Assembly: GCF_000189635.1 (NCBI RefSeq)
Contig: NW_002476414.1
Span: 143,870-207,869, forward strand
Length of the DNA stretch: 64,000 bases
Direction: 5' to 3'
DNA from: Tetrahymena thermophila SB210
Taxonomy: Eukaryota > Ciliophora > Oligohymenophorea > Hymenostomatida > Tetrahymenidae
A model generated the notes under the pieces. The model did not search any database, was not told where the DNA came from, and worked only from the letters and a program-made list of their open reading frames with translations. Every line of letters begins with the position of its first letter. The first letter of the stretch is position 1. Positions 3,785 to 45,171 of this stretch are shown piece after piece. A program made the translations under genes and the position numbers.

Positions 3785-4990
3785 TCAAGACCACATTTTA
3801 ATTCTATTGTCAGCACCGACAGTTACTATTGTATCTTAGTTTAATCTGCACACACTATATACATCACCTTAATGAGCCCTATCCAAAGAGCGAATTGCTG
3901 GAGATTCTGTTTTCCAGTTCCAGAATTTTATAGAGCTATTATTTGCAGTGCTTACTATCTCTTCACCTGATAGCTTTAATATCTTCCAAATACTGCCAGT
4001 ATGACCAGACAAAGTTCTAATACACGTTCCAGTTGCCCAATTCCAAATTTTTATAGTTTTGTCTTATCCACCACTAGCAACTTCTGTCTTAGACAACTAG
4101 CAAACAGTTTAAACACCACCTTCATGAGCTAAATATAAATAAAAAATTTAATTAAAAACCATGCAATTATCCTTCTAAAGATTTGATAAAATTCAATTTT
4201 TTTGTTGCATTTGATAAGAAAAAAATAATTCTATGTGTCTCAAAAACACAATTCATAATAAAAACCATCTTTTGGCTGATCAAAATAAATCAAATAGTTT
4301 GCTTTAAATTTCATCAAAATCCCCCTAAACTTATTTAAAATATGAGCTTATTTTTGTAGATAAAGATTAAACTATTAAATAGAATGTTCAAAGACTTTTG
4401 ATGCTTACAATACAAATAAATAAGGGGGATTATCAATTTAAAAGTTATATTTTTTCTACTGAATAATAAATAAATAATGTAAAGTAAATTATTTAAACTA
4501 AATCCTTTTTCTTAATAAATTAAGAAATAAAATAAATGAGGGGGATTTTATTTTAAAGTTAAATCCTTTGTCGTCATCGTTTTTAATTTTTGCAAAGGGG
4601 GATAGCAGATGACATAATTAATACTTTAAAGTAATTAGCTTGCTTGATAAATATTAACTGAATGTATTTATTTTTTAATATTTTATAGTTAAATCTATTT
4701 AAAATAACAATACTTTATCATTTTATCAGTATCAATACTTTCAATAAAGTTAACATGTTATTTTTAAATTTTTTTAACTTTATCTTTAATTATAACTTGT
4801 TTATCTTACTATTTTGATTAATTCAATCAATTTATTTAATTTTTTAGTTTTTATCCAAGCATTAATAGTAATAAATAAATAAATTATTTATTTATTTGCT
4901 TAAGAAAACAAGTAACCTTATTTATTTTATTTACTCTGCTTTGATTGATCAAATTCATTTTGCTTCGCTCATAAATAATAAAATTGGTTT

Positions 4991-5025
<35 letters not shown>

Positions 5026-14186: not shown

Positions 14187-17100
14187 TCATATAAAATATA
14201 TTTTAAAGACAACTAATCTTTTTAATTTAAGATATTTTATTTCTTCTTCAAGTTACTATAATTGGTTTATTTTGTTTTTACTTTTAATATAAATTTTTTT
14301 TAATTACTAAAAAATTAAAAATATTAAAATTTTTTAATTTATGTTTATATTTTAAATCAATAAATAAATAAAAACAATAGTAGAAGAATAAAAAAAGAAG
14401 TGAAATAAATATATAAATAAATTTAATAAAAAGCTGATAAATAAATTAAAATTTTATAATTTTTTAATTATTTTATATTAAAAAATATCACTAACGAAAA
14501 AATGGTTTTTTACCGAAGATAAAGTGTAAAATATGAGAGATTAGTGCACTTTCTAAAATTAGAACTTAAGCCTGATGCACCAATTACACCAATTTCATTC
14601 AAACTTTTTAAATATTGAAAAAAAAAATTTTAGCTAATTAGTGAGTTAGAAGACAATATGAAGAAAAAATATCAAGTTATAATAAATTAAATAATTTATA
14701 ATAAAAGCAAAAGTTCAAAATTAATTAAAAACTTAATTAAATAAACTAACAAAGTGAAAAAAAGCAGAATAATAAGAAAAAGAAAACTAAATCAAATAAA
14801 AAGCTCATAAATAAATAAATTAAAAGAGTTATATTTCTTTAAATTTATTTTTATATTCAAAAGTATCACTATCCATAACAAATAAAATGTTTTTACTCAA
14901 GATTAAGTATCAAATTTGAGAGATTAGTGCACTTTGCTAAAGAAGAACCAAAGCCTGATTCGCATTCATCACCAATATAATTTCCACTTTTTAAATATTT
15001 AAGAAAAAAATATATTTAATTAATTAATTAGTGAGAAGGAAAAAATGAAGAAAAAATATGAAATAATAAGAAATTAATTGAAAAATAAATAATAAAATCA
15101 AAATTTCAAAATCAAAACATTTGTTAAGTTAACAAAGGGAAAAAAATGCACACAAGCAGAATGATACAGAAATAAAAAGAAATCAAATAAAAGCTAATTA
15201 ATAAAGTTAAAAAGTAAGTTGTGCTGTTTTAAATATATTATAATATTAAAAAATATTACAATCCAAAATAAATAAATAAACTGTTTTTACCTAAGATCAA
15301 GTGTCAAATTTGAGAGATTAGTGCAATTTGCTAAACTAAAACATATGTCTGATGCACCTTAATAATGAATTTAATTTTTGCTTTTTAATTAAACATTTAA
15401 GAAAATAATATTATTACTTATTTATATTGAAGGAAAAAATGAAGAAATAATATGAAATTATAAGAACTGAATTAACAAAAAAGTTCAAGATAAAAAAATA
15501 AATTTAACTTAGAAAAAAAAAAAAAGAATAAATAATAAATAGAAAAATAAATGAAATAAAAAGTTGATAAATAAATAAATTAAAGGAGTTATATTGCTTT
15601 AAATTCGTTTTTAAAATAAATAATCACACAATCCAAAATAATACAACTGTCTTTACCAAAGATTAAGCTTTAAATTTGAGAGATTAGTGCACTTTGCTAA
15701 AGCAGAACTAAAGCCTGACGTACATTCATCACCAATATAATTTCCACTTTTTAAATATTGAAGAAAAGAATAAAATTAACTAGTAAGTTAGAAGGAAAAT
15801 GAAGAAAAAATATGAAATAATAACAAATGAATTAATTTATTAATAAAATAAAATTTGTTTAGTTAATAAAAGAAAGAAAAAAAACACAAGCAGAAGTAAC
15901 AGAGAAAGAAAAATAAATCAAATTAATAAAAAGGTGATGTTGTTTTAAAAAATTATAATATTAAAAAATATTACAATCCAAAAATAAATAAACTGTTTTT
16001 ACCCAAGATCAAGTGCCAAATTTGAGAGATTAGTGCAATTTGCTAAATTAGTAAATAGGCCTGATGCACCTAGATCGTGAATTTAATTTTTGCTTTTTAG
16101 AGAATTTACAATCGGAGCATTTTTAGATCAGTACAGGTAAAAAACCTCTCTGCCACACTATTTTTTCGCCTTCCAAGTATTTTCCTTGGAGGGCTACTTT
16201 TTTAGACTTTTTTAAAAACAATTTTTAACAAATTTTTAATAAAATCGGCTCCAGCCGAAAAAAAAAAAAAATTAAATTAGGACACTGGTTATATTGCTTT
16301 AAATTCTTTTTTATATTAAAAAATATCATAATTCAAAATAAATTAGTGTTTTTACTCAAGATTAAGTGTCAAGTTTGAGAGATTAGTGCATTTTGATAGA
16401 ACAAAAAAAAAGCTTGATGCACATTCATCACCAATATAATTTCCACTTTTTAAATATTGAAGAAAAGAGTAAAATTAATTCATTAGTAAGAAGGAAAAAT
16501 GAAGAAAAAATATGAAATAATAAGAAATGAATTTATTTATAAATAATAAAATCAAAAGTTCAAAATCAAAAAATTTGTTAAGTTAACAAAAGGGAAAAAA
16601 AATACAAGAAGAATGAAACAGATTATTAATAAATAATTAAATAGACCGTTTTTACCCAAGATCAAGTGTCAAATTTGAGAGATTAGTGCACTTTTCTAAG
16701 CTAGGACATATGCTTGATGCACCTAGATCATGAATTTCATTATTGCTTTTTAAATATTGAAGAAAAGAATTTTATTAATTATTTTTTTTGAAGGAAAAAA
16801 TAAATAAAGAAAATGGATGAAATAATAAAAACTAAATTAACTCATAATAAAAATAAATTTAAACAATAAAAGGTGTTATATTGCTTTAAATTTATTTTAT
16901 TTATTAATAATTATCACAATCCAAATCAAATAAACTGTTTTTACATAAGACGAAGGGTCAAATTTGTGAGATTAGTGCACTTTTCTAAAGCAGGACCTAA
17001 GCATAATATACCTTCATCCCCAATTTAATTTCCACTTTTTAAATATTGAAGAAAATATATAATAAATTATTTATTTTGAAGGAAAAAACAAAAAAATAAT

Positions 17101-20100
17101 ATGAAATAAGAAGAAATGAATATATTTAATAATAATAAAAGTAAAAGTTTAAAATGCAAAAATGTTTTAAATTAAAAAAAAACATACAAGTAGAATAAAA
17201 AAGGAAAAAAAATAAATCAATAAATAAAATAAAAATCAGAAAAATAAATTTTATGAGTTTTATTGTTTTTAATTTATTTATGTATTAAAAAATACCCCAA
17301 TAGAAAGCAAATTAACTGTTTTTACCTAAGATCAAGTTTCAAAATTGAGAGATTAGTACACTTTGCTATAGCAGAACTTAAGCCTGACGAACCTTCGTAG
17401 CCAATTTTAATATTCCTTTTTTAAATATTGAAGAAAATAATACTTAAAATTAGTTATTTAGAAGGAAAAACTGAATAAAATTATGAAATAATGAAAAAAA
17501 TGGTAAATTATAAAGAAAGAAAAATATCAAAAGCATAAAAAAATTAAAAAAAATCAAATAAAAAGCTGATAATTCGATTAAAAGAGTTATTTGTAATATT
17601 TAAAATTCATTTTAATATTAAAAATATCAAAATTTCCAAGACATATAAATTGTTTTACTGAAGACCAAGTGTCAAATTTGAGATGCTATTGCAATTTGCT
17701 AAACCATAACCTAAGCCTAATACACCTTCATCGCCAATTTAATTCGAGCTTTTAAATATTGAAGAAAAGAATATAATTAATTGCTTAGTTAGTTAGTTAA
17801 TTAGTAAAAAAAAATGAAGTAAAAATATGAAATAATAAGAAATTAATTATTAATAATAAAAGCAACAGTTTAAAATAATTTTATTTAACAGACAAAAAAA
17901 TAAAAGCAAAATAAAATAAAAATTAATAAATAAATAAATTAAAAGAGTAAGCTATATTGCTTTAAATTTATTTTTATATTAAAAAATATTGCAATCTAAA
18001 ATAAATATACTATTTTTACCCAAGATTAAGTGTCAAATTTGAGAGATTAGTACACTTTCCTAAATTAAAGCCTAAGCCTGAAGCACCTATTGCACAAATT
18101 TTATTGAAACTTTTTAAATATAGAAGAAAATAATAGTTATTTAGAAGGTAAAAATTTAAAGTAATAAGAAATGAGTAAATTGATGATAAAAGAATAAGTT
18201 TACCATGTACAAGTTAGATAAATTAGCATATAGATTAATAAATAAAAAAGAAAAATAAACCAAATAAAAAGCTTATAAAAAAATTAAAAGAAATAATTAC
18301 TTTCTTTTAAATTCATTTTTACATTAAAAAATATCGCAATCAAATACAAATAAAGTTTTTTTACCCAAGAATAAGTGTCAAATTTGAGAGATTAGTGCAC
18401 TTTACTAAACCAGAACCTAATCCTGTAACACTTTCATCACCAATTTAATTCTACCTTTTTAAATATTGAATAAAAAATATAATTAATTAGTTAGTTAGTT
18501 GTAAAAAAAATAAAAGAAAAATGAGAAAGAAAAAATAAATCAAATAATAAGCTGATAAATAAATTAAATAAATGAGTGATATTATTTTAAATTCACTTTT
18601 ATTTAAAAAATATCATAATTCAAAACAAACAAATAAACTGTTTTTACTCAAGAAGAAGTGTCAAATTTGAGAGATTAGTGTACTTTGCTAAAGCAGACCC
18701 TAAGCCTGATACACCTTCGTCGCCAACACCAATTTCATTGTACCTTTTTAAATATTGAAGAAAAGAGTATGATTAATTAGTTATTTATAAGAAAAAATAA
18801 GAAATAAAATTATAAATTATTAAAGTAAAAGTTTTAAATTATTAAATAGGTATAATTAACAAACAAACAAAAAATACAAGCAGAATAAAAAAGAAAAATA
18901 AATAATTTAAAAAGCTGACAAAAAAATAAAAAAAGTAAGCTATTTTGTTTTAAATTTATTTTTATTTTAAAAAATATAGCAATCCAAAACAAATAAATTG
19001 ATTTTACTGAAGATCAAGCTTTAAATTTGAGAGATTAGAGCATTTTGCTAAATCAGAAATTAAACCTGATGCACATTTATCACCAATATAATTATCACTT
19101 ATTAATAATTGAAGAAAAAAATATAATTAATTCGTTAGTAAGTTAGTTAGTTGTTTATAAGTAAAAAATAAGAAATAATAAGAAATGAATTAATTTAAAA
19201 TAAATAAAAGCAAAATTTCATGAAAGATAAATCAAATAAAAAGCTAATAAATAAATTAAAAAATTAAGTTGTTTTAAATATATTTTTATTTTATTAAATA
19301 TTATAATCCTAAATAAATAAACAGTTTTTACTTTAGACAAAGTGTCAAATTTGAGAGATTATTGTTCTTTCCTAAGCCAGAACCTAAGAATGATACACCT
19401 GCTTCTCCAATTTAATTATATCTTTTTAAATATAAAAGTAATATATATACTTATTAGTAAGTTAAAAGGAAAAATAAATAAAAAATACGAAATAAAAAGT
19501 AAAAAATTAATTAATTAATTATAAAAGGATTATTTCAAAATGAAAAAATAAGTTAAATTAACAAAGAAAATAAAAAAATACAAGCAGGATATAACAGAAA
19601 AAGAAAATAAATCAAATCAAAAGTTAATAATTAATGAAAAGAATTATAAATTTTTATATTTATTTTTATATGAAAAAATATCACAGTCCAAAATAAATAA
19701 ACATTTTTACCGAAGATCAAGTGTTAAATTTGAGAGATTAGTGCATTTTCCTAAAATGGAACCTATGGTTGATGCCCCATTGTCGGTAATTTAATTGTAC
19801 CTGTTTAAATATTGAAGAAAATAATATAATTAATTTGTTATTTAGATGGAAAAAATGAAGAAAAAAGATTAAATAATAAGAAATGAATTAATTAATGATT
19901 AGAAAATGATTGAAATGATAAAATTGGTTAAATTAACTTAGAAAAAAATATAAAATGAAATATAAATCAAATTAAAATAGAATAAATAAATAAACGAAAA
20001 GAGTTATGCATGTTGTTTTAAATTTATTATTATCTAAAAAAAATCACAATAAAAAACAAGTAAACTGTTTTTACATAAGATAAAGTGCCAAATTTGAGAG

Positions 20101-20652
20101 ATGAGTGCACTTTACTAAAGCAGAACCTAAGTCTGATGCATCTTCATCTCCAATTTAATTTCCCCTATTTAAATATTGAAGAAAAAAAATATTAGTAATT
20201 AGTTAGTTAGAACGAAAAAGTGAAGAAAAAAATGAAACAATAAGAAATTAATTAATTATAAAAGTAAAAGTTGGAAATGAAAATCAAGTTAAAATATTTA
20301 AGTAAATAAAATAAAAATGAATGAATATAGATGAGAATTTTTATTAGAAGAAAATATTATAAATAGATTGAAAATTAAATATAAAAAAAGCAGTACCGTC
20401 TAACCTGTAAGTTAAGTTAAAAAAAAATTAATTTTTTGGGAAAAACTCACACTTTTTTCACACTTAACTTCAAAAAACAAACTTAATTAAAAATTAACTT
20501 AACATAGAGGTTAGACGGTAATAATAAAAAATATTAATTAATTAATTAATTAATTAAAAATACATCAGATCAAAATGGAGAACCTAATAAGATTAAAGTG
20601 AAGAGTTTAAAAACTTTTATGTTGATTAAAATAAATTTAAAAAAAAATAATA
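14187..20652 (-). CDS. LRR gene A: 17 LRR exons, start codon lost
   Basis: Last exon 14187-14280 (ends ...RLVVFKIYFI, TGA). LRR exons start (low coordinate) at 14514, 14897, 15291, 15657, 16003, 16356, 16656, 16945, 17326, 17659, 18020, 18365, 18648, 19008, 19332, 19711 and 20075; each is 90 nt except 18648-18743, which is 96 nt (two extra residues). All are open, with phase-2 junctions and GTAAAAA-type donors. The repeat consensus is N-x-I-GDEGASGLGSALAKC-TNLSNLTLDL, a ribonuclease-inhibitor-like LRR. The first exon (from 20564 upwards) matches the sister genes through VLHFDL, but the ATG present in B, C and D is replaced and a 1-nt deletion shifts the frame upstream, so the N terminus is uncertain and the copy may be a pseudogene. 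It has four more LRRs than B and D. Cellular role unknown; LRRs normally bind protein. Confidence 0.8.
14897..16745 (-). repeat. Two-exon module present three times in gene A
   Basis: LRR exons at 14897/15291, 15657/16003 and 16356/16656 alternate between two types. One has an acceptor side matching ...CACCAATATAATTTCCAC on the + strand, the other ...GAATTTAATTTTTGC. Genes B, C and D have a single such pair at the same place (22054/22394, 27668/27953, 33228/33497). The module is about 700-760 bp. Confidence 0.8.
16100..16288. mobile_element. Hairpin-rich insert ending in A14, possible retroposed RNA
   Basis: A 189-bp segment replacing the usual intron body between two LRR exons of gene A. 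It is richer in GC than any neighbouring intron. On the + strand it contains AGGTAAAAAACCT, a stem CCTTCCAAG/CTTGGAGGG (16169-16177 with 16185-16193), a perfect TCGGCT/AGCCGA stem (16245-16258) and then 14 consecutive A (16258-16271). The flanks return to normal intron sequence on both sides. The structure suggests a reverse-transcribed small RNA (SINE-like), but no target-site duplication is obvious and I do not recognise the RNA. The total intron length is nearly unchanged, so material was replaced rather than simply added. Confidence 0.5.
20394..20520. mobile_element. 127-bp inverted-repeat element (MITE-like) in intron 1 of gene A
   Basis: The ends are perfect inverted repeats, TACCGTCTAACCT at 20394 and AGGTTAGACGGTA at 20508-20520. 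After a few mismatches there is a further matching GTTAAGTTAA on both arms. The outermost TA on each side is compatible with a TA target-site duplication, as in Tc1/mariner-type elements. The orthologous intron positions in genes B, C and D lack it and read through (AGCAATAATTATA-like text), giving an empty-site comparison. There is no coding capacity, so it is non-autonomous. Confidence 0.85.
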
Positions 20653-21393
20653 TTTAAAATAGATAATTACATCATTTATATTATTGAAATATTTTTTTTA
20701 TAACATCATTTTTTATTTATTTATTTTAATTTCAAAAATATTGATCAATAATATATGGAAGGAAATTGAATTAATTATAACTAATTATATTAAAAAATTA
20801 ATTTACTTATATTTCAAATTAATTTAGATAAAAAAGACAAGTAAATTATAATGATTATCAAAAATAAATTTATAAATTTGCTAAAAGGAAGAAATATCTG
20901 AAAAAAAGTTAATTTTGAAATTGCTAATCCTGATTAGGCTAATGCATCATATTTAGAAAGATGTTTTTTAGAAAATGACTTTAAATAGATAACAAGACAG
21001 AAAAAGCTTTAAATGAGTGAGGAAAAAACTTTTGATGAGAATGGTGTAAGTTTTAACCAGAGATGTTGTTGAATATTTAGTCATTTGAATCATGAATATC
21101 ATTGAATAATTTATAATTTGAATAGGATATTTTTATTAAATTTTTATTTATTTGTTAGAAATTGTATAATAATTTTAAATTAATTTCAAGTAATTTCTTA
21201 AATTCTTTCTTTCTTTCTTTTGGAATTCGCCTTTTGATTAAAATATAATGAATAATAAATAAATCTACCTATTTATAAGTTTAAATTATTCTATTACAAA
21301 ATATATGTTATAAAATAAAGATATATATATTTTATTATTAAAGAATTTTTATATTTATTTATCTATCTTTTTTTAACCACTTGCTTATCACAA
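20653..21393. other. Spacer between LRR genes A and B
   Basis: About 740 bp containing the 5' flank of gene A, which is similar to the flanks of B, C and D, and a short unique coding-like stretch near 20902-21088, listed separately. The rest is AT-rich with a CTTT repeat. Confidence 0.55.
20902..21088 (+). pseudogene. Coding-like fragment in the LRR A/B spacer
   Basis: An open frame on the + strand following a TGA and ending at TGA 21086-21088. It reads as protein-like sequence including NPDQANASYLERCFLENDF, KQITRQKK and MSEEKTFDENG. Composition is richer in GC than the spacer, and no counterpart exists in the spacers between B/C or C/D. A GTAAG resembling a splice donor follows the ENG codons. 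It may be the remnant of an unrelated gene or exon trapped between duplicated LRR genes; chance cannot be excluded. Confidence 0.3.
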
Positions 21394-24300
21394 TCAGAAA
21401 TTTATTTTAAAGAAAACTAATCTTTTTAATTGAAGACACTTGCTTTGAACTTTCAATTACTATGATTCATTTATTTTGTTTTTACTATTAATATAAATGA
21501 GTATAAATTACTCAAAAAAGTTAAAATAATAAAATTTTTTAATTTAAATTTATATTTTAAATCAATAAATAAATAAAAATAGCATTAAAAAAATAGAAAA
21601 AGAAAAATAAAAATAAATCAATAAAAAAAATTCTGATTAATAAATAAATGAAAAAAGTTAGTTAAATAGTATTAAATTTTTTTCTATATTAAAAAATATC
21701 ACTGTCTAAATCAAATAAATTGTTTTTACCGAAGATAAAGTGTTATATTTTGGAGTTTAGTGCACCTTCCTAAACTAGAACTTAAGCTTGATGCACCAGT
21801 TATACCAATTTCATTCCAACTTTTTAAATATTAAGGAAAAGAAATTATAATTAACTAGCTAAAAGGTAAAAATGAAGAATAAATATGAAATGATAAGAAA
21901 TTAAATAATTAATAATACAATCAAAAGTTAAAAATGAAAAAATAAATAAATGAATAATTTAAATTAACAAACAAAAAATAAAAAAACAGAATAAAAAACA
22001 AAAATAAATAAATAAAAAAATATCACAATCCAAAGCAAATAAAGTGTTTTTACTCAAGATTAAGAGTCAAATCTTAGAGATTAGTGCACTTTGATAAAGC
22101 AAAACCAATGCCTTATATACCTTCATCGCCAATATAATTTCCACTTTTTGAATATTGAAGAAAAGGAGATAATTTATTAGTTAGTTAGAAGAAAAAAATG
22201 AACAAAAAAATGAAAGAATAAATAAGTTAAAATAAAAAAGAAACAAACAAAAACATAAGCAGAATGAAACAGAAAAAGAAAAATAAACCAAATAAAAAGC
22301 AAATAAATAAATTAAAAGAGTAGAGTTATGGTGTTTTAAATATATTTTTACATTAAAAAATATTGTAATCCAAAATAAATAAACTGCTTTTACCTAAGAG
22401 AAAGTGTCAAATTTGAGAGATTAGTGCACTCTCCTAAACTGGAACATATGCCTGAAGCACCTAGATCACTAATTTAATTTCCACTTTTTAAATATTAAAT
22501 AAAAGAATATTATTAACTATTTATTTAATTTGAAGAAAAAAAAGAAGAAATAGCATGAAATAAATAGAACTAAATTAACTAATAATAAAAGCAAAAGTTC
22601 AAGATAAAAAATTAGTTAATCAAAAAAAGAAAGAAAGAAAAAAAAAAACAGAATAAAGAATAAGAAAATTAAATCAAATAAAAAGTTGATAAATAAATTA
22701 AATGAATTTTATTGTTTTAATTTCATTTTTATATTAAAAAATATCATAATCCAAAATAAATATATAAATTGCTTTTACACAAAATCAAGTGTCAAATATT
22801 AGAGATTAGTGCACTTTCCTAAATTAAAACCTAACCCTGACGCACCTTCATCACCAATTTAATTTCCCCTTTTTAAAAATTGAAGAAAATAATATAATCA
22901 ATTATTTATTTTGGAGGAAAAAACTAAGAACAGTCTGAAATAATAAGAAATGAGGTAATCAATCAATAAAAAAAGCAAAAGTTCAAAATGAAAAAATATT
23001 TTAAATTAAAAAAGAAAGAAAAATTCAAGCAGAATCAAAAATAATCAAATAAAAAGTTGATTAATAAATTTAATGAGTTTTATTTTTTTTTTTAAATTGA
23101 TTTTTATACTTAAAATATCACAATCAGAAACACATAATCTATTTTTACATAAGATAAAGTGTCAAATTTGAGAGATTAGTGCACTTTGCTACAGCAGAAC
23201 CTAAGCCAGATGAACCTTCTTAGCCAATTTTACTATACCTTTTTAAATATTGAAGAAAAAAATAAAATAATAATTTAATTAGAAGGAAAAAGTGATGAAA
23301 AATTTCAAATAATTAGAAATTAATTATTAGAGTAAATGCTTGAAATGAAAANNNNNNNNNNNNNNNNNNNNNNNNNNNNNNNNNNNNNNNNNNNNNNNNN
23401 NNNNNNNNNNNNNNNNNNNNNNNNNNNNNNNNNNNNNNNNNNNNNNNNNNNAAAAGGAATAAAGCTAAATAAGAATAAATCAAATAAAAAAATCATAAAT
23501 AAATTAAATGATGGATATTTATTATTTTTAATTCATTTTTATATTAAAAAATATCAAAATCAAAAGCAAATAAACTATTTTTACACAAGATAAAGTGTCA
23601 TATTTGAAAGATTAGAGCACTTTGTTAAACCAAAACTTAAACCTGATGTACCCTCATCACCAATTTCATTCTGACTTTTTAAATATTGAAGAACAGAATA
23701 TTATTTATCAGTTAGTTAGAAAATAAATTTATGAAAAAATATGAAATAAAAATAAATTAATTAATTAAAATAAAAAAAGTTTAAAGTTATAAAATAAATT
23801 TTATAAACAAAAGCAAAAGAAAAGAAAAAGAAATCAAATAAAAAGCTGATAAATAAATAAATGAAAAGAGTTAGTTAGTTAGTTAGTTATATTGTTTTAA
23901 ATTTATTTTTAAATTAAAATTATCACAACCCAAAATAAATAAACTGTTTTACTTTAGATAAAGTGTCAAATTTGAGAGATTAGCGCAGTTTCCTAAACCA
24001 ACACCTAAACATGATGCACCAATTGCACCAATTTAAGTTTCGCTTTAAATATTGTAGATAAGAATATAATTAGTTTGTGAGTTATTTAGATTGAAAAAAT
24101 GAAGAAAAAATATTAAAAATAACATATTGTTTAAATATATTTTTATAACAAAAAATATCAAAATAAAAAACAAATAAACTGTTTTTACCTTAGGTTAAGT
24201 GTCAAATTTGAGAGTTTAGTGCACTTTGCTATAGCATAACCTAATACTGATGCAGTTTCATCACCGATTTAATTCAGACTTTTAAATATTGAAGTAAAGA

Positions 24301-26359: not shown

Positions 26360-26992
26360 AATAAATAAAATAAATAATTACTTCTTCTGCATTATTGAAA
26401 TATTTTTTCGACGATATCATTTACTTATTTTTATTTCAAAAATATTTAACAGAAATTTAAGGAAATTTAATTAATTAAATTAAAAAATTAATTTACTTTT
26501 ATTTCTTATTAATTTAGATAAAAAGAACAAATAAATTTCAATAGTTAATAAATTAGTATATAAATTTTCTTTTAAGAAGAAATATCACAAAAAAGCTTGT
26601 GTAGCATTTGTTATTAAATATTAATATTTAAAAAAAGAAAAAATTATTCAAAAGTAAGATTTTTAATCAAATTTTAATAAAAATGTGATGACTGACTGAC
26701 TGACATATTTATTTATTATTTATGTCAGAATTCACCAAAATTTATCATAAACAATTTCAAATATATTTTTTATTTAATTTTAAACTCATTAATACCTAGC
26801 CAAACCACTAGATTTGAATTAGGTGCTTGGCTTTACAATTTCTTATTTAGAAGAATAAAAAAAATAAAAAATCTATCTATTTATTAAAAATGTTAAATTA
26901 TTCAATTACAAAATATTATAAAATAAATATTTTATATTCTGATATTGAAATATTTTTATTTTATTCATTATTTTTTCAACACATTTATATCA
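26360..26992. other. Spacer between LRR genes B and C
   Basis: About 630 bp holding the 5' flank of B and the 3' flank of C. The first 150 bp resemble the flanks of the other LRR genes. A GACT tandem (around 26690-26703) and a weak hairpin AGCCAA...TTGGCT (26799-26834) were noted. No gene. Confidence 0.5.
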
Positions 26993-29900
26993 TCATTTGA
27001 ATTATATTTTAAAGACAACTAATCTTTTTAATTTAAGACATTTGCTTTCTACTTGCAATTACTGTGATTCTTTTATTTTGTTTTTACTTTTAATTTAAAT
27101 TAGTGTAAATTATTAAATAATATTTAAAATAATCAAATATTTAAATTTATATTTATATTTTCAATCAATAAATAAATAAAAATAAAATTAGTGCAATAAA
27201 AAGAAAATCAAATAAATTAAATAAAAAGCCTTTAAATAAATAAAAAAAATGAGTAAGTTAGTAGTATTGTTTTTAATTTTTTTTATATTAAAAAATATTG
27301 CAATCCAAAGCAAATAAATTGTTTTTACCGAAGATCAAGTTTCAATTTTGAGAGATTAGTGCATTTTTCTAAACCAAAAACTAAACTTGATGCACCAAGT
27401 ACTCCAAATTCATTCCAACTTTTAAAAAATTGAAGAAAAAATATTTAGCTAGTTAGTTAGGAGGAATAAATGAAGAAAAAATATTAAATAGTAAAAAATT
27501 AATAAATAATAATAAAATTAAAAGTTCAAAAAGATAAAATGAAATAATTAAATTAACACAGAAAGAAAAATAAGTTAAATAAAAAGCTGATAAATAAATA
27601 AACTAAATAGCTAAATTGTTTTAAATTCAATCAAAAAATATTAAATCTAAAAATAAAGCGTTTTTACCCAAGATTAATTGTCAAATTTGAGAGATTAGTG
27701 CACTTTGCTAAAGCAGTACCAAAGCCTTATGCACATTCATCACCAATATAATTTCCACTTTTTAAATATTGAAGAAAAGCAAAATCAATAATTTATTAAA
27801 TTTACAAAAAGGAAAAAAAAAACACTAGCAGAATAAAACAAAAAGATCAAATAATCAAATAAAAGATAATAAATAAATTAAAAAAATTATATTTTTTAAA
27901 TCTATTTTATACTAAAAAATATTATAATCCAAAATAAATAAACTATTTTTACCCAAGATTAAGTTTCAAATTTGAGAGATTAATGCAATTTCCTAAACTA
28001 GAATATATATCCGATATACCAAGATCACCAATTTCAATACCACTTTTTAATAATTGAAGAAAAGAATATTATTAATTATTTATTTATTTTGAAGGAAAAA
28101 ATGAAGAAAAAATATGGAATAATAAGAACTAAAATAACCAATAATAAAAGCAAATGTTCAAGATAAGTTTATTTTTATATCAAAAATATCACAATCTAAA
28201 ATAAATAAACTATTTAACGTAAGACCAAGCGTTAAATATGAGAGATTAGTGCATTTTCCTAAAGCAAGACTTAAACATGATGCACCTTCATCACCAATTA
28301 AATTTCCACTTTTATTGAAAAAAAGAATATAATTAATTATTATTTTGAAGAAAAAAGGAAGAAATAATATAAAATAATAATAAATTAATTAATTTATAAA
28401 TAATAAAAGCAAAGTTTAAAAATAGAAACATTTTTTTAAATTAAAAAAGAGAAAAAAACTCAAGCAGAATAAAAAATAAAAAGAAAAGTAAATAATTGAT
28501 AAATAAATTAAATGAGTTTTATTGTTTTAAATTTATTTTATTTTAAAAATATCACAATCCAAAGCAAATAAATAAGCTGTTTTTACTTAAGATCAAGTTT
28601 TAAATTTGAAAGATTAGCGAGTTTTGCTATAGCAGAACCTAAGTCCGATGAACCTTCATAGCCAATTTTATTACAACTTTTTTAAATTTTAAAGAAAAAA
28701 ATATTATTACTTAGTTAGTTAGTTATTTATTTATTTAGAAGGTAAAACGAAGAAAAATATCAAATAATGAAAAAATTTGTTGAATTAATAAAGAATAAAA
28801 AAGTTAAAGAAAAATAAATAAATAAAATAAAAAGCTAATAATTAAATAAATTAAAAGAGTTAGTTAGTTATCTGATTTAAATTACTTTTGATATTAAAAA
28901 TAACACAATTTATAAGGAAAATAAACTGTTTTTACCGAAGATCAAGAGCCAAATTTGAGAGATCAGTGCAATTTGCTAATGCAGAACATAAGCCTGATAA
29001 ACCTTCATCACCAATTTAATTGTACCTTTTTAAATATTGAAGAAAAAAATATAATTCATTAGTTAGTTAGTTAGTTAGTTAGAAAAAATATGAAACAATA
29101 AGAAATAAATAAATAAATGAATTAATAATAAAAGGAAAAGTTGAAAATAATAAAATAAGTTTAAAGAAAAAAAATAGAATCAGAATAAAAAAGAAATAGA
29201 AAAATAAATCAAATAAAAACTAACAAATAAATAAATAAATTAAGAGATTAAGTTAGTTATATTGTTTTAAATTTATTTTTATATTAAAAAATAATCTAAA
29301 ACAAATTAAATATTTTTTTACCCAATCTCAAGTGTCAAATTTGAAAGATTAGTGCACTTTATTAAACCAGAACCTAAGCCTGATGCACCTAAGCTACTAA
29401 TTTAGTTTTCACTTTTTAAATATTATAAAAAAAAGTATAATTAATTAGTTATTTAGAAGGAAAAAATATTAAATAATAAGAAATTAGCTTATTAATGATT
29501 AGAAAAAAAATTTTTTAATTTTAAAATTAGATAAACTACCAAATATATAAAATAGAAGCAGAATGAATATAAAAGAAAAAGAAGTTAAATAAAAAGAGGA
29601 GAAATAAATTGAAAGAGTTAGTTATATTATATGTCTTAAATTCGTTTTTACATTAAAAGATATCTCAATTCAATACAAATAAATTTTTTTACCAAAGATT
29701 AAGTGTCAAATTTTAGAGATTAGTGCAATTTGCTAAACCAGATCCTAATCCTGTAGCACTTTTATCACCAATTTAATTTACACTTTTTAAATATTGAAAA
29801 AAAGTAAAAAATTAATTTGTTAGTTACAAAAAAATGAAATAAAAAAGAGAAAGAAAAATAAATCAAATAAAAAGCTGATAAATAAATAAATGAAAAGAGT

Positions 29901-31477
29901 TAGTTTTATTGTTTTAAATTCATTTTTATAACTAAAAATATCACAATTAATAACAAATAAACTATTTTTACCCAAGATTAAGTGTCAAATTAGAGAGGTT
30001 AGTGCATTTTGCTAAAGCAGATCCTAAGCCTGCTGCATATCCAACACCAATTTAATTGTAACTATTTAAATATTGAAGAAAAGAATATAATTTATTAATA
30101 GTTAGAAAATAAAATGAAAGAAAAAATATAAAATAATAAGAAATTAATTTATAAAAAAACAAAAGTTTAAAATGATAATAATAATTAATAAAAAGTTGAT
30201 AAATTAATTAATTAAATGAGTTTTATTGTTTTAAATTTATTTTCAAGTTAAAAAATATCATAATCCAAAACAACAAAATTATTTTTACCGAAGATCTAGT
30301 GTTAAATTTGAGAGATTAGCACACTTTGCTAAATGGGAAACTAAAACCGATGCACCTTCATCACTAATTTAATTTTACCTTTTTAAATATTGAAGAAAAT
30401 AATAAAATTAATTAGTTAGTTTGTTAGTTTAAAGGAATAAATGAAAAAATAACTAAATAATAAAAAATGAATAATAAAAGTAAAATTTCAAAGTGAAAAA
30501 ATAAGTTAAATTAATACTGAAAATAAAAAAACACAAGCAGAATAAAAAAGAAAAAGAAAAATTTTTCAAATAAAAAGCTAATAAATAAATAAATGAAAAC
30601 AGCTATTTGTTTTAAATTTATTTTTATATTGAAAAATATCACAATACAAAACAAATAAACCGTTTTTACCTAATATCAAGTGTTAAATTTTAGAGATTAC
30701 TAAACTTTCCTAAACTAGAACCTATTCCTGATGCACCTGCATCACCAATTTTATTGTATCTGTTTAAATATTGAAGAAAAGAATATAATTAATTAGTAAC
30801 TTAGAAGTAAAAAATGAAGAAAAAATATGAAATAATAAGAAATGAATTTATTAATGATTAGAAAAAAGCTTGAAATGAAAAATTGATTAAATTAACAAAG
30901 AAAAAAACAAAAATGCAAGAAGAATAATTAATTACAAAGCATAAAATTAAATATAAATCAAATAAAAAGAGTTTTGTTTTTTTTAAATTTATTATTATAT
31001 AAAAAAAAAATAACAATCCATAACAAATAAACAAACTGTTTTTACCCAAGATAAAGTGTCAAATTTGAGAGATTAGTGCATATTTCTAAACCAGAACCTA
31101 AGCATGACACATCTTCTTCTACAATTTAATTGTACCTTATTAAAAAATAAAGAAAAAATATAAATTATTAGTAAGATAATGGAAAAAATAAATGAAGAAG
31201 ATATATTCAGAAATAACTGAATTAATAATAAAATCAAAAGTTGAAAATCAATTTAAAAATAATTAAATAAATATAAATAAAAATGAATGAATGAATAAAG
31301 GCGAATTTCTACTACAAAAAATATTTTAAATAGTTTTAAAATTAAATATAAAAAATCAGCAATAATTATATTAATATATTTAAAATACATCAAATCAATA
31401 TGGAGAACCTAATAAGATTAAAGTGAAGAGTTTAAAAACTTTTTTTATTAATAAAAATAAATTTAAGAAATATTCAT
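26993..31477 (-). CDS. LRR gene C: 12 LRR exons
   Basis: First exon 31389-31477 (MNISQIYFYQQKKFLNSSL...). LRR exons of 90 nt start at 31046, 30670, 30289, 29972, 29693, 29322, 28936, 28587, 28219, 27953, 27668 and 27329; the last exon is 26993-27086. Coding total is 1263 nt, 420 aa. Exon-by-exon alignment with B and D by their acceptor-side sequences suggests one LRR exon has been lost between those at 30289 and 30670. The donor of the exon at 28219 is GTTAAATAG instead of the usual GTAAAAATAG. The C-cap reads KNKIKESQQLQVESKCLKL then KRLVVFKIQFK. Function unknown beyond LRR-mediated protein binding expected for the fold. Confidence 0.85.
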
Positions 31478-32026
31478 AATAAATAAAATAAATAATTACT
31501 TCTTCTATATTCTTGAAATATTTTTCCTATGATATCATTTATTTATTTACTTATTTTTATTTCAAAAATATTGAACAAAAATTTATGGAAATTGAATGAA
31601 TTATAATTAATTATTTAAAAACTAATTTACTTTTATTGCAAATAAATTTAGATAAAAAAGACAGATAAATATATTACAATAATTATCAAATATATATTTA
31701 TAAATTTGCTTTTAAGAAGAAATATCACAAAAACACTGGTTTAATATTTTATTAAATCTTAGTCATATGTTGAAACAATTCTAAAGGTTTATTTTTTTTA
31801 ATTGAATCCAATATGATTTTTTGAAAGAGCTGAGGTTAATTAAAATTTTTTTTTTTGATATTTATGTTAATTGATAACCAAAATATAATAAATTAATATT
31901 GGATGTGAGATCTACTTGTTTCTTTATTATAAAAATATTTTAATAAAAAATTAACATTATATTCCCATAAAAAATTTCTTCAATATAAATATTATTTTCT
32001 TTTATTATTAAGCCTGAATGAATAAT

Positions 32027-32077
<51 letters not shown>

Positions 32078-32592
32078 TTATTATTAAGCAAGAAAATACT
32101 ACAAAATTTATGTTAGATATTTTTAAGTTTATCTAAATATTTAAAGTGCTTTATAAATTTTATAAATATTGTAATTTTTATTTAATCTTTGCTAATGCCT
32201 AAAAATATTAATTCCCATTGTTAATATATCTAATTAATATCTATGATTTCAAAGCTTCTAATTTAAGAAATTTAATAAGATAAAATATTCACTATCAATA
32301 ATTAAAGATTTCATTTTTTTTTAATAAAATTGATAACTGACTTAAGAGTAAATACCTTATTTATTTATTTATTTAAGTAATTTCCATTTTTTTATTTTTT
32401 ATTTAGTAAAATAATTATGTTCAGCTTACAAAATTTATTTGATATATATAACTCTAAAAATAAAACAAATCTATCAATTATTAGTCTAAATTATTCATTA
32501 CAAAATGTTATAAAATAAACACATTATATATATTCTATTTTTCAAATATTTTTATATTTATTCATCTATTTTTCACCACTTGTTTATCACAA
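31478..32592. other. Spacer between LRR genes C and D
   Basis: About 1.1 kb. The 5' flank of C at the left is similar to the other LRR genes. It includes a long TTTA tract at 32024-32079. No gene recognised. Confidence 0.55.
32024..32079. repeat. (TTTA)n simple repeat
   Basis: About 14 uninterrupted TTTA copies in the LRR C/D spacer. Confidence 0.92.
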
Positions 32593-35500
32593 TCAGAAAT
32601 ATATTTTAAAGACGACTAATCTTTTTAATTTAAGATATTTGCTTTCAACTTTTAATTTCTATGATATATTTATTTTGCTTTTACTTTTAATAAATTTTTT
32701 ATTAATAAATAAAAATAAAATTAGCTAGCTTATTAAAAAAGCAAAAAAAATAAATTAAATAAATGACTGATAAATAAATAAATAAAAAAGTAAGTCATAT
32801 TGTTTTTAAACTTTTTATATTTTAAAAATTATAACAGTCTAAACAAATAAATTGTTTTTACAGTATAAAAAGTGTCAAATTTTAGAGGTTAGTGCACTTT
32901 CCTAAAACAGAACTTAAGCCAGATGCACCAATTTCACTAATTTCACTCCAACTTTTTAAATATTAAGGAAAAAATATAATTAATTAGTTATTTAGAAGGA
33001 AAAAATGAAGAAATAATATCAAATTTAATAACTAATAATAAAATCAAAAGGCCAAAATGAAAAAATAAACGATTTAAAATAACAAACAAAAAACTAAACG
33101 AGAATAAAAAAGAGAAAGAAAAATAAATTAAATAAAAACTGATAAATAAATTAATATGGTTAAGTTGCTTTAAATTCACTTTCATATTAAAAAATATCAC
33201 AATCCAAAACAAATAAAGTGTTTTTACTCAAGATTAAGTGTCAAATTTGAGAGATTAGTGCACTTTGCTAAAGCAGCACCAATGCCTAATACACCTTCAT
33301 CACCAATTTAATTGGAACTTTTTAAATATTGAAGAAAAGAATATAATTAATAAGTTTTTTTGAAGGAAAAATAAAAACAGAAAAAGAAAAATAAATTAAA
33401 CAAAAATATAAAAAATAAATAAATAAATTAAAAGAGTTATGCTTGAATGTATTTTTTTAAAAATATTAAAATCTAAAATAAATAAACCTTTTTTACCTAA
33501 GATAAAGTTTCAAATTTGAGAAATTAGTGCACTCTCCTAAACTTGAACATATGCCTAATGCACCAAGATCACCAATTTAATTTCCACTTTTTAAATATTC
33601 AAGAAAATAAAATTTATTAATTAATTATTTATTTATTTATTTATTTAGTTTGAAGGAAAAATTAAGAAATAATATGAAATAATAAGAATTAAATTAAGCA
33701 ATAATAAAAGCAAATGTTCAAGATAAAAATTGCTTAAGCAAACTAAGAAATAAAAAAGAAAAAGAAAATAAATCAAATAAAAAGCTAATAAATAAATTAA
33801 ATGAGTTTTATTGTTTTAAATTTATTTTTATATTAAAAATATCACAATCTAAAATAAATAAATTGCTTTTACGTAAAATCAAGTACCAAATTTTAGAGAT
33901 TAGTGAATTTTCCTAAATTAAAACCTAAGCATGACGAACCTTCATCACCAATTTAATTGGAACTTTTTAAATATTAAAGAAAATAATATAATTAATTAAC
34001 TATTTATTTTGAAGGAAAAATCAAAGAAAAATATGAAGTAAAAAGAAATGAGTTAATTAATAGAAAAAGAAAAAGTTCAAAATGAAAAAAATTTTTAAAT
34101 TAACAAGAAAAGAAAACTCAAGCAAAATAAAAAAGAAAAGAAAATAATCAAATAAAAAGTGATAAATAAATTAAAAGAATTTTATTGTTTTAAATTTGAT
34201 TTATGTTAAAAAATATCACAATCCAAAACACATAAGATATTTTTACACAAGATAAAGTGTCAAATTTGAGAGATTAGTGCGCTTTACTACAGTAGAATCT
34301 AAGTCTGATGAACCTTCTTAGCCAATTTTACTATAAATTTTAAAATATTAATGAGTTAATTTGAAGAAACAAATAAAGAAAAATATCAAATAATATGAAA
34401 TTAATTAATTAATGAAATATAGATTAAATAGTTGTAATGAAAAATTGATGAAATTAATATACAAAGAAAAAAATAAAAGCAAAATCGAAAATAAAAAGAA
34501 AAATAAATAAACTAAAAAGCTCATAAATAAATTAAATGAGTTAGTTATATTGTTTTCAATTCATTTTTATATTAAAAAATATAAAAATCCAAAACAAATA
34601 AACTATTTTTACACAAGAAAAGGTGTCATATTTGAGAGATTAACGCATTTTGTTAAACCAAAACCTAAGCCTGATACACCTACGTCACCAATTTCATTCT
34701 GACTTTTTAAATATTGAAGAAAATAATATTATTAATTAGTTATTTACAAGAAAAAAAAAGAAAAAAAATATGAAATAATAAGAAATGAATTAATTAATAA
34801 TAAGAAAAAAGCTTAAAATGATAAAATAAATAAGTTTAATTAACAAAGAAAAAAAACAAAAGCAGAATAAAAAATAAAAAGAAAAATAAATCAAATAAAT
34901 AAATAACTGATAAATAAATGAAAAGAGTTAGTTAGTTATATTGCTTTAAATTTATTTTCTTACTAAAAAATATCACAATTACAAAAACAAATAAGCTGTT
35001 TTTACCTTAGATTAAGTGTCAAATTTGAGAGATTAGTACAATTCCCTAAACCAACACCTAAACCTGATGCACCGATTGCACCAATTTAAGCTCCACTTTA
35101 AATATTGTAGAAACGAATATAATTAGTTAGCAATTAAGGAAGAAAAAATGAAGACAAAATATGAAATAATAAGAAAGAAATGAATTAATTAAATGATAAG
35201 AGAAAAAGTATGAAATGCAAAAATTGAATAAAATAGCATAGAAATAAAAAAATAAAACCATAATATAAAAGAAAAGAAAAATAAATTAAAAGAGTTATTC
35301 ATATTTTTTAAATATATTTTTATAGTAATAATTATCATAATCAAAAAAAATAAACTGTTTTTACCTTAGATTAAGTGTCAAATTTGACAGATTAGTGCAC
35401 TTTGCTATAGCATAACCTAATTCTGGCACACTTTCATCACCAATTGAATTGATACTTTTTTATTTTGAAGTAAAGAATATTTTTAGTTTGAAAAAAAATA

Positions 35501-37346
35501 AAAGAAAAAGAGAAAGAAAAACAAGATCAAATAAGAAGCTGATAAATAAATTAAAAAACTTATATTGATTTAATTACCCTTTTATAAAAAAAAAAATCAC
35601 AATCTAAAGAAATAAACTATTTTTACTCAAGATTAAGTGTTAAATTTGAGAGATTAGTGCACTTTGATATAGAAGAACTTAAGCCTGATACACCTTTGTC
35701 ACCAATTAAATTGTACCTTTTTAAATATTAAAGAAAAGAATATAATTAATTTGTTAGTTAAAAAAAATGAAGAAAAAATATAAAATAATATGAAATTAAT
35801 TAATTAATAAATAAATAATAAAAACAAATTTAATTAAAATGATAAACTGAGTTTAATTAACAACGAAAAAAAAAATGAAAAAGAATAAAAGAGAAAAAGA
35901 AATTTTTAAATTAAATAGTTTATTTTGTTTTAAATTAATTTTTATATTAAAAAATATCACAATCCAAAACAAATATTTTGTTTTTACCCAAGATCAAGTG
36001 TTAAATTTGAAAGATTAACACATTTTGCTAAATCAGAAACTAAACATGATAAACATTCATCACTAATTTTATTGTCACTTATTTATTAAGTATTCAAGAA
36101 AAAAATATAATTAATTAGTTAGAAGGAAAGAATGAAGAAAAAATATAAATTAATAAGAAATAAATTAATTTATTAATAATAAAACCAAAAGTTTAAAATA
36201 AAAAATTAGTGAGATTAACAAAGAAAGAAACATAAAATAAAACATAAATCAAACAAAAAAAGGTAATAAATAAATAAATAAATTAATTAATTAAAAGAGT
36301 TTTGTTGTTTAAATATATTTTTATATTAAAAAATATCAAAATCTAAAACAAACAAGTAAAGTGCTTTTACCTAAGATTAAGTGCCAAATATTAGAGATTA
36401 GTGTACTTTGTTAATGCAGAACTTAAGCCTAATGCACCTTCATCATTAATTTCATTTTACCTTTTAAATATTTAAAATATTTAAGAAAAGAATAGAAATA
36501 ATAAGAAGCAAATAAATAATAAAAGTAAAAGTTCAAAATAAAGGATTTGTTAAATTAACAAAAAAAAAAAAACATAAGTAGAATAAAAAAGAAAAATAAA
36601 TAAAATATAAAGATGATAAATAAATTAAATGAGTATTTTTATTTTAAAAATATTTATTTTTATATTAAAAAATGTCACAAACCAAAACAAATAAACCATT
36701 TTTACCTAAGATCAAGTGTCAAATTTAAGAGATTAGTACACTATCCTAAACTAGGACCTATGCTTATTGAACCTTCATCACAAATTTTATTGTAACTTTT
36801 AAATATTGAAGAATAGAATATAATTAATTTGTTAGTTAAAGCTTGAAATTAAAAAATTTGTAAATTTAAAAAGAAAAAAAAAAGCAAAAGTAGAATAAAA
36901 AGGAATTATAAAAATAAATCATTTAAATATATAGCTGATAAATAAATGAAAAGAGTTATTTTATTTTAAAATTATTATTAAATTATACAAAACATAATCC
37001 AAACTAATAAACTGCTATTACCCAAGTTAAAGTGTCAAATTTGAGAGATTAGCACACTTTGCTAAAGTAGAACCTAAATCTGATGCATCTTTATAACCAA
37101 TTTTATGGTACCTTTTAAATATTGAAGAAAAAAATATAAATAATTAGTTAGAAGGAAAAAATGAAGAAAAAATATGAAATATTTATCAGAAAAAAATAAT
37201 GTAAATAGTTTTTAATATAAAAAATGAGCAATAATTATAATAATAAATTAAAAATACATCAGATCGATATGGAGAACCTAATGAGATTAAAGAGAAGACT
37301 TTAAAAACTTTTTTTATTAATAAAAATAAATTTAAGAAATATTCAT
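32593..37346 (-). CDS. LRR gene D: 13 LRR exons, one with shifted acceptor
   Basis: First exon 37258-37346 (MNISQIYFYQQKKFLKSSL...). LRR exons start at 37022, 36706, 36371, 35988, 35627, 35365, 35006, 34613, 34247, 33873, 33497, 33228 and 32862; the last exon is 32593-32683. All LRR exons are 90 nt except 34247-34330 (84 nt), where the usual acceptor AG is gone and the next in-frame AG 6 nt downstream must be used. Coding total is 1344 nt, 447 aa. The protein is an N-cap, 13 LRRs and a C-cap (KSKINISQKLKVESKYLKL then KRLVVFKIYF), no signal peptide. It is the upstream-most member of the cluster and looks fully intact. Confidence 0.85.
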
Positions 37347-44783: not shown

Positions 44784-45136
44784 TCATCTTTTAATAATTC
44801 TTTTTTTATTTTTAAGAGTGTCTTATACTTATTTCTGAAATTCTTCTACTCTAAACATTTATTTTTCTTTTTCAGCATCCTCAGCTTTTATCTTATATGC
44901 ATCAACTAAAATTAAATAAAACAAAATAAAATTTAATTAATTACTTTTAAAAAAATTAAAAATTTCATTAAAAAAATAAATAATTTATTTATTTGTATAC
45001 GCATTCCAATTAAATCTTAATCAAGAGGCTTTCCTCCAATGTTAGAAAGAGATAAATAAGACTCTTCTGCATATTTTTGTTTTCTTTAATCTGAGTACTG
45101 TTTTGTATTAAAAATAAAGTGATATTAAGAAAATAA

Positions 45137-45171
<35 letters not shown>

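Follow-up and report, generated by a model that had tools for sequence, protein, structure and literature searches.

Modular repeat proteins in which variable residues sit on a constant scaffold include the lamprey variable lymphocyte receptors (VLRs), which are assembled somatically, and the TAL effector repeats, which bind DNA. The leucine-rich repeat (LRR) exons of Tetrahymena, a freshwater ciliate, share with them the modular repeats and the variable residues on a constant scaffold. The closest described genes are the group III LRR genes of Tetrahymena, which have exons of exactly 90 bp, phase-2 introns, and a variable number of exons (Xiong et al. 2019, PMC6564038). As described there, the conserved leucine codons are centered at nucleotides 36, 48, 66, 75, 81, and 87, the introns of T. 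thermophila group III genes are near 257 bp, and exons are shuffled via unequal crossing over. A figure legend in the same source mentions a tandem cluster of five LRR genes in T. malaccensis, and whole-gene tandem duplication is given as the origin of about 1.6% of the LRR genes in T. thermophila. Selection was reported as purifying overall, with Ka/Ks raised to about 0.4 in young LRR genes; the amino acid logos of that paper omit the junction residue, and the terms "hypervar" and "positive selection" have no occurrence in its main text.

Two fungal systems are also close. The WD repeats of HET-D and HET-E in Podospora anserina are tandem, near-identical, variable in number, and subject to concerted evolution, and a few surface codons per repeat are under diversifying selection beside conserved codons (PMC1805685). 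Fungal NLRs carry highly conserved internal ANK, TPR, or WD repeats with positively selected positions, and the study describing them reports no LRR motifs (PMC4986451).

The window analyzed here is a 64-kb stretch of T. thermophila DNA for which our gene models, with splicing inferred from sequence, predict four complete LRR genes, G1 to G4, all on the minus strand (Table 1). The species assignment agrees with telomerase stretches of this genome, which are identical to PDB 6d6v_A, and with a median intron length of 257 bp. An earlier sequence-only reading had described four tandem LRR genes with one repeat per exon, hidden by the standard code and probably of a class already reported for Tetrahymena. 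Each of these points holds: exons, frames, and LRR profile all agree, the frames are open only under the ciliate code, and the class has been published as the 90-bp-exon LRR genes (PMC6564038). The cluster had been placed at 14187..37346, which is right at its start, but 37346 is an internal ATG of the first exon of G4, which begins at 37406. The LRR exons number 55 (17, 13, 12, and 13 in G1 to G4), 53 of them exactly 90 nt and the others 84 and 96 nt, just as had been counted, and the exons are phase 2-2 as claimed, with 59/59 introns in phase 2. Donors begin with GTAAAA in 52 of the 59 introns; the longer GTAAAAA, found in 43, is common rather than near-invariant as first thought. The first introns of all four genes have a GTATTTT donor, and three further introns deviate.

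Table 1. Features of the four-gene LRR cluster (positions in the 64-kb window)
Feature	Coordinates	Strand	Remarks
G1, CDS	20709-14187	-	17 LRR exons, 591 aa; no internal TGA; Pfam LRR_6
G1 first exon	20709-20564	-	
G1 last exon	14280-14187	-	
G2	26392-21394	-	13 LRR exons, 460 aa counted from longest open start; Pfam LRR_6
G3	31477-26993	-	12 LRR exons, 420 aa; Pfam LRR_6
G4	37406-32593	-	13 LRR exons, 467 aa; Pfam LRR_6
G1 exon 5	18648-18743	-	Sole 96-nt LRR exon
G4 exon 9	34247-34330	-	84 nt in model
G3 exon 9	28219-28308	-	GTTAAAT donor (one of the three deviating)
Two-exon unit three times in G1 (exons 11-12, 13-14, 15-16)	14897..16745	-	Counterpart of exons 11-12 in G2 and G4
Assembly gap of 100 N	23352-23451	.	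Inside G2 intron 8
First exon and upstream region common to all four genes, example G1	20564..20894	-	
Dispersed element of ~145 bp	16098..16243	+	In G1 intron 12, antisense to the gene; an A-run follows
Insertion in intron 1, G1 only	20380..20525	.	Terminal inverted repeat (by eye); MITE-like

Each frame ends in TGA, and the lack of internal TGA is weak evidence by itself (2.3 expected; P of none = 0.08); in-frame TAA (14 to 19 per gene) and TAG (1 to 4 per gene) are read as sense. The 13 LRR exons of G2 are a minimum because the assembly gap lies in one of its introns, and an internal ATG common to G2, G3, and G4 would shorten the G2 N terminus. The 84-nt exon of G4 looks, by eye against G2, as if its usual acceptor has been altered, with the splice site shifted to an AG 6 nt farther downstream. 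A check proposed with the sequence-only reading, an LRR profile search of the spliced translations, put all four proteins above the Pfam LRR_6 cut-off. At E values up to 0.001, Pfam returned only LRR families for the window proteins, with neither a NACHT/NOD domain nor an effector found, and their Kyte-Doolittle mean over 19 residues shows no segment above 1.43.

Group III is delimited by uninterrupted runs of three or more exons, each exactly 90 bp long, with flanking phase-2 introns, which agrees with the exon and intron counts of G1 to G4 (PMC6564038). The cluster also has the six leucine codons (leucine at codons 12, 16, 22, 25, 27, and 29 in 40, 45, 53, 51, 53, and 50 of the 55 exons, respectively) and the long introns of that group (median of 264 bp for 59 introns, one containing the N gap, versus the published peak at 257 bp). 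With HET-D/HET-E, the Tetrahymena arrays share near-identical tandem repeats, a variable repeat number, likely concerted evolution, and a few changing codons on a constant scaffold, a likeness in working and not in membership. The HET-D/HET-E repeats are of the WD type and sit on NACHT proteins that act in allorecognition (PMC1805685), whereas the Tetrahymena proteins are LRR-only, each repeat has its own exon, and the exons run to thousands. The fungal NLRs described without LRR motifs differ likewise from the window proteins, which have nothing but LRR families in Pfam (PMC4986451). The LRR gene class in T. thermophila is already known, and what the present analysis adds is the exon history, the junction variability, and the excess of codon change over introns.

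In the gene models, G2 and G4 are collinear in 13/13 exons, G3 has one exon fewer, and G1 carries an exon pair three times. The 17/13/12/13 series of the sequence-only reading is therefore right as a set of counts and not as a simple copy-number series, the plan being one of 13 exons with one missing in G3 and a pair present three times in G1. Exons are 79 to 87% alike among the four genes; within the G1 repeated unit, likeness is 86 to 87% among exons 11, 13, and 15 and 82 to 88% among exons 12, 14, and 16, and G1 exons 14 and 16 resemble G3 exon 11 at 89% and 91%. Perhaps a two-gene unit was also doubled in the cluster, a signal weaker than the quartet counts suggest. With introns in phase 2, the loss, gain, or exchange of an exon keeps the reading frame. 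The cluster looks like a case of whole-gene tandem duplication, traced here exon by exon, and would be a readable record of gene growth and shrinkage.

A scoring matrix built on 272 exons from outside the window recovered 53/53 of the 90-nt window exons, all on the minus strand, with no other match on either strand of the 64 kb and none in 10 shuffled windows; this test is not wholly independent because the 272 exons were found with a matrix from the window exons. The exon-end pattern has 4,916 matches in the genome. Twenty stretches outside the window, one of which (L041) yielded no exon, were sampled from the first 100 listed matches to this pattern plus one further search, a choice that favors consensus-like arrays. 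The introns among their exon chains have a median of 257 bp.

Both in the window and among the 272 outside exons, the most variable of the 30 repeat positions is position 1, followed by position 30, the residues at the exon junction. A peak of variation at the exon joins fits a fast-changing recognition surface. Constraint on the core is clear between G2 and G4, with 5 core amino acid changes in 12 exons against a mean of 18.9 in 1,000 neutral simulations that used the intron substitution spectrum, none of which was as low; for all amino acid changes, the figures are 88 and 103.6 (P = 0.001). Within the window, pN/pS was 0.34 for the core and 1.10 for positions 26, 28, 30, 1, and 3 (Fisher p = 0.0008). 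Positions 20, 21, 23, and 24 reached 1.90, which exceeds the value for the presumed concave set and stems from a pS of just 0.062; at positions 9 and 11, pN was 0.35 and 0.33. Excess change over introns inside the window is marginal: pN was 1.76 times intron mismatch for G2 and G4 (p = 0.024), and p was 0.55 for four exon pairs chosen by their introns.

The excess is plain in other arrays. Pair analyses covered 322 of the 325 90-nt exons (53 window, 272 outside), leaving out duplicates and exons whose nearest neighbor lay more than 700 bases away; the 84- and 96-nt exons were likewise set aside. Pairing on mid-exon similarity had given a huge excess at the exon edges, but this selection is biased and was replaced by pairing on introns. 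In 15/15 outside loci with at least two pairs, codons 1 and 28 showed 1.4 to 14 times the change of linked introns while core leucines were kept; L032, L033, L038, L039, and L041, as well as G1 to G4 taken singly, had fewer than two pairs and stand outside this count. For 19 intron-chosen pairs, pN at codons 1 and 28 was 0.374 and intron mismatch was 0.031, a value that such pairing biases downward. Measured against scaffold synonymous sites, which were unused in pairing, the excess was about 4- to 17-fold. It was present in both halves of the sampled loci; under stricter settings, half B retained only 5 and 8 pairs, with the last two bases differing in 1/10 and 2/16. In these outside arrays, codons 1, 3, 6, 7, and 28 and the junction change well above both linked introns and scaffold synonymous sites. 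Codons 2 and 4, lying between variable codons, are near constant (pN of 0.063 and 0.008), and where a pair has the same residue at codon 1, the codon differs in 0/9, 1/14, and 1/15 pairs at three nested thresholds, both of which argue against plain regional hypermutation. The fit to the concave face of the repeat is partial because, outside the window, position 26 is low (0.10) and positions 6 and 7, off the strand, are high.

We consider it probable, at roughly 0.65, that G1 to G4 are intact tandem members of the T. thermophila group III family and belong to a germline LRR repertoire in which, much as in HET-D/HET-E, a presumed binding face is under diversifying selection. Each exon encodes one 30-residue repeat, and part of the variable residues would lie on the concave side of the LRR solenoid. 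The excess would then reflect diversifying selection on a scaffold held uniform by recombination, and the proteins may be intracellular recognition molecules, with the window genes as older members whose signal has largely decayed. Because change concentrates in each repeat on a small set of codons, located at the junction and in part on the presumed binding face, recognition becomes a testable claim, which bears on the role of the very many Tetrahymena LRR genes.

If the cluster were satellite-like repeat DNA in decay, or a group of pseudogenes whose open frames survive by chance, this would account for pairwise whole-exon dN/dS values among G1 to G4 of 0.75 to 1.0 (every interval spans 1), for changes almost even across the three codon positions, for a longer N-terminal frame that is open in G1 and G4 and closed in G2 and G3, and for a non-consensus donor at one exon. 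This is improbable given core amino acid changes far under the neutral simulation, four frames open over 14 to 19 exons, and an exon GC content (0.33) more than twice that of introns (0.14). Misassembly is a very improbable source of the tandem arrangement: repeats of this kind are prone to it and there is a gap within G2, but the likeness among exons is far from that of collapsed or falsely duplicated copies, and the insertion in intron 1 is confined to G1.

In another reading, which we hold to be rather unlikely, the variable codons are simply unconstrained and gene conversion homogenizes the rest, with no positive selection. Concerted evolution itself is likely because arrays vary greatly in homogeneity (mean intron mismatch per array of 0.049 to 0.24), and the excess over introns shrinks as intron divergence grows. 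At codons 1 and 28, moreover, pS (0.396; 7/18 sites, 19 pairs) is as high as pN, giving ratios of 0.94, 0.88, and 0.81 at three thresholds. Many of these counts fall inside multi-base codon replacements, but within-codon ratios alone do not, given such values, show selection. Yet a single base separates codon 1 from the acceptor, and the junction bases adjoin the donor; a conversion tract would therefore usually include these sites. The scaffold, too, is not specially homogenized, since its synonymous change resembles intron change. Multi-base differences also make up 8/10 at codon 1 versus 5/59 at the 24 codons that remain when 1, 3, 6, 7, and 28 are set aside. We give little credence to the idea that thousands of one-exon LRR cassettes have their binding-face codons replaced whole by a dedicated process, be it targeted mutation or the templated exchange of short stretches. 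In this view the intron would sit within the hypervariable patch, and exchanging exons would also create new junction residues. Whole-codon differences at 3 to 5% intron mismatch, the equality of pS and pN, and array L023, whose 15 near-identical repeats differ mainly at codons 1, 3, 6, 7, and 28 and the junction, would suit such a process, but selection on the residue is in line with the constant codon in same-residue pairs and with the near constancy of codons 2 and 4.

Rfam gave no match in the window at gathering thresholds and, below them, just four in the surroundings of the G1 insertion, no tRNA was found in the window, and two flanking gene pieces had no PDB match at E 1e-10. The G3 version of the first exon and upstream region has at least 37 matches on other contigs (among the best 40 of 631 candidates scored). 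Among the matches listed, a telomere pattern appeared on contig C4 only (contig start; ~465.6-465.9 kb), in a weak test whose control reads the same repeat. Repeats at the nucleotide level are visible inside the genes.

Under the ciliate code, the minus strand at 14187-37406 gives four complete tandem genes, G1 to G4, in which one LRR exon encodes one 30-residue repeat. The models agree with the sequence-only reading, which had described genes of 17, 13, 12, and 13 repeats and 55 LRR exons, 53 of them exactly 90 nt long and the others 84 and 96 nt, and its phase 2-2 exons are borne out by 59 of 59 modeled introns in phase 2. The GTAAAAA donor that it called near-invariant does start most introns (43 of 59) but is not near-invariant: 52 of 59 begin with GTAAAA, the first intron of all four genes begins with GTATTTT, and the remaining three donors deviate, one being GTTAAAT 3' of a G3 exon. 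The four frames contain no internal TGA, and their sense codons include TAA and TAG. The 13 exons of G2 are a minimum because a 100-N gap lies within its intron 8. The LRR profile search on the spliced translations gave Pfam LRR_6 matches above the cut-off for all four proteins, in which neither a second Pfam domain nor a strongly hydrophobic segment was found. A matrix from 272 exons outside the window recovered 53 of 53 of its 90-nt exons, with no further match on either strand and none in 10 shuffles, a test that is not wholly independent since the 272 exons came from a search with a window-exon matrix. G1 and G4 have an open N-terminus of 48 to 49 aa, while the upstream frame of G2 and G3 is closed, leaving an internal ATG. 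In the stretch encoding TNLSNLTL, several third codon bases are kept along with the residues across the 55 exons, and the third base of codon 20 is invariant; recent origin or a constraint from splicing may lie behind this conservation.

Coordinates of the LRR genes, inserted elements, neighboring gene pieces, and one outside array
Feature	Position	Strand	Description
G1	lowest coordinates of the four; first exon at 20709	-	17 LRR exons, 591 aa
G2	next above G1; first exon at 26392	-	13 LRR exons, 460 aa
G3	next above G2; first exon at 31477	-	12 LRR exons, 420 aa
G4	highest coordinates of the four; first exon at 37406	-	13 LRR exons, 467 aa
Dispersed ~145-bp element	16098-16243	+	G1 intron 12
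Insertion	20380-20525		intron 1, G1 only; terminal inverted repeat (by eye)
Gene piece	4830-5624	-	WD40
Gene piece	41506-42597	+	FAP206
Gene piece	45024-46487	-	ODAD1 coiled coil
Gene piece	48743-50344	+	FWWh
Gene piece	57700-58749	+	pectinacetylesterase
L023 (outside array)	G000 C38:42000-48000		15 near-identical LRR exons, differing mainly at codons 1, 3, 6, 7, and 28 and the junction

The suggestion that the class might already have been reported was right: Xiong et al. 2019 (PMC6564038) describe 90-bp-exon LRR genes in T. thermophila, with about 72,000 such exons across ten species and an intron length peak of 257 bp in T. thermophila versus 232 bp in T. malaccensis. Exon chains in our sampled outside stretches have a median intron of 257 bp, the T. 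thermophila value and not that of T. malaccensis. G1 to G4 were not found by name in the sections covered, and the main text has no occurrence of "hypervar" or "positive selection." Among the open-licence matches listed for hypervariability or positive selection in Tetrahymena LRRs, this paper alone bears on these genes; because the literature covered was open-licence papers only, the pattern is not thereby proven unpublished. The exon-end pattern has 4,916 genomic matches with at most three mismatches, and the reversed pattern has none. Across most of two aligned blocks, telomerase exon stretches agree letter for letter with PDB 6d6v_A, a T. thermophila entry, and CCCCAA telomere repeats are present, on one contig among the matches listed.

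In the window, variability among the 30 repeat positions peaks at residue 1, with 15 amino acids, and residue 30, with 13; the intron splits the residue 30 codon at the junction. Residues 1 and 30 also top the ranking, with 20 and 18 amino acids, in 272 exons and 227 junctions from 19 of 20 other stretches. Exons in these arrays were paired by intron similarity alone. In 19 pairs from 10 loci (intron mismatch, 3.1%), 36 of 96 nonsynonymous sites differed at codons 1 and 28 (pN, 0.374), the core leucine/isoleucine positions had a pN of 0.010, and 21 of the 38 last-two bases differed; a looser, overlapping set of 54 pairs (mismatch, 5.4%) gave 0.399, 0.026, and 52 of 108. The ratio to introns exceeded 1 in 15 of 15 loci with at least two pairs (range, 1.4 to 14.3). 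Since intron-based pairing pushes intron mismatch low, synonymous sites of the scaffold offer a fairer comparison, and against them the excess at codons 1 and 28 is present in both halves of the loci (half A, 0.434 to 0.456 versus 0.038 to 0.095; half B, 0.158 to 0.404 versus 0.011 to 0.112). Stricter settings leave few pairs in half B: 5 pairs gave pN of 0.158 and last-two-base differences of 1/10, and 8 pairs gave 0.226 and 2/16. Codons 3, 6, and 7 of the outside arrays resemble 1 and 28, codons 2 and 4 hardly change (0.063 and 0.008), codon 5 is intermediate (0.123), and position 26 is low (0.10). The 15 exons of L023 carry 14 distinct residue combinations at codons 1, 3, 6, 7, and 28.

At codons 1 and 28, pS is no lower than pN (0.396, 0.435, and 0.490 at three thresholds), which counts against a simple selection reading. 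The synonymous counts at codon 1 come almost entirely from residue-changing codons, since pairs with the same residue there differ in codon in only 0/9, 1/14, and 1/15 cases. Such a source of the counts fits selection and also fits replacement of whole codons. Multi-base differences account for 8 of 10 at codon 1, compared with 5 of 59 for the 24 codons outside the set 1, 3, 6, 7, and 28.

Pairwise dN/dS among G1 to G4 was 0.75 to 1.0, with every interval crossing 1. With G2/G4 and G1/G3 pooled by position, pN/pS was 0.34 at core sites versus 1.10 at positions 26, 28, 30, 1, and 3 (Fisher P = 0.0008). The latter set is not alone in its variability: positions 20, 21, 23, and 24 reach 1.90, owing to a pS of just 0.062, and the rate at positions 9 and 11 equals that at position 30. 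G2 and G4 differ by 5 core changes against a mean of 18.9 in simulations over 12 exons with the intron substitution spectrum (as few in 0 of 1,000 runs). The core is therefore under constraint, and mere decay does not describe the genes. The G2/G4 excess over introns at codons 1 and 28 was marginal (ratio, 1.76; P = 0.024), and the four window pairs chosen by introns gave P = 0.55.

In standard LRR geometry, residues between the strand leucines point to the concave side, where positions 26, 28, 30, 1, and 3 would lie; the agreement is partial, with positions 26, 6, and 7 as awkward cases. This distribution of change is like that of Podospora HET-D/HET-E, whose WD repeats have four surface codons per repeat under diversifying selection and evolve in concert (PMC1805685). 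We put the odds that the G1 to G4 proteins are recognition molecules at about even.

Within a window gene, exon identity is 73 to 74% and intron mismatch 19 to 24%; 19 outside arrays with at least six exons span 73 to 89% and 5 to 22%, and the outside arrays L022 to L025 have 82 to 88% and 5 to 10%. Because of this low identity and high mismatch, the cluster seems to be older than any other array compared, with repeats apparently no longer homogenizing. Exons and flanking introns were compared for their history. G2 and G4 exons pair one to one (13/13), G3 keeps most exons in that order without exon 3, and G1 follows it with exons 11-12 in three copies (exons 11/13/15, 86 to 87% identity; 12/14/16, 82 to 88%), so that the counts of 13, 13, 12, and 17 reflect one 13-exon plan. 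The plan holds less well at G1 exon 3, for which no partner stands out, and at G1 exons 7-8, which are nearer G3 than G2. G3 exon 11 is 89% and 91% identical to G1 exons 14 and 16, equal to or above their mutual likeness; either the extra pairs were therefore in place before G1 and G3 separated, or there has been conversion.

Informative sites, counted without exon 3 and four introns and using G1 copies 11 and 16, favor a split of G1,G3 from G2,G4 in exons (43 versus 9 and 8) and introns (53 versus 31 and 14). This split rests mainly on the likeness of G2 and G4 (exon identity, 0.867), with G1/G3 (0.804) barely above other pairs (0.791 to 0.802), so that derivation of the cluster from a doubled two-gene unit is no more than possible. 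It is disfavored by the upstream region, where overall identity is highest for G2/G3 (0.893), and by the closed longer N-terminal frame that both share.

Families were matched by five neighboring gene pieces (see the table) and by none of the 13 others scanned. The ~145-bp element has at least 44 matches, itself included, with 40 of 79 candidates scored; the other copies scored are 72 to 99% identical, most with the same two end points. It matched no Rfam family at gathering score. Four close inverted pairs occur (C71, C232, C24, and C262), and the window copy has an A-run behind it, as after retroposition. The insertion in G1 intron 1 has partial matches of 27 to 104 bases on six other contigs (C61, C125, C154, C382, C161, and C167) and, from its sequence, resembles a MITE.
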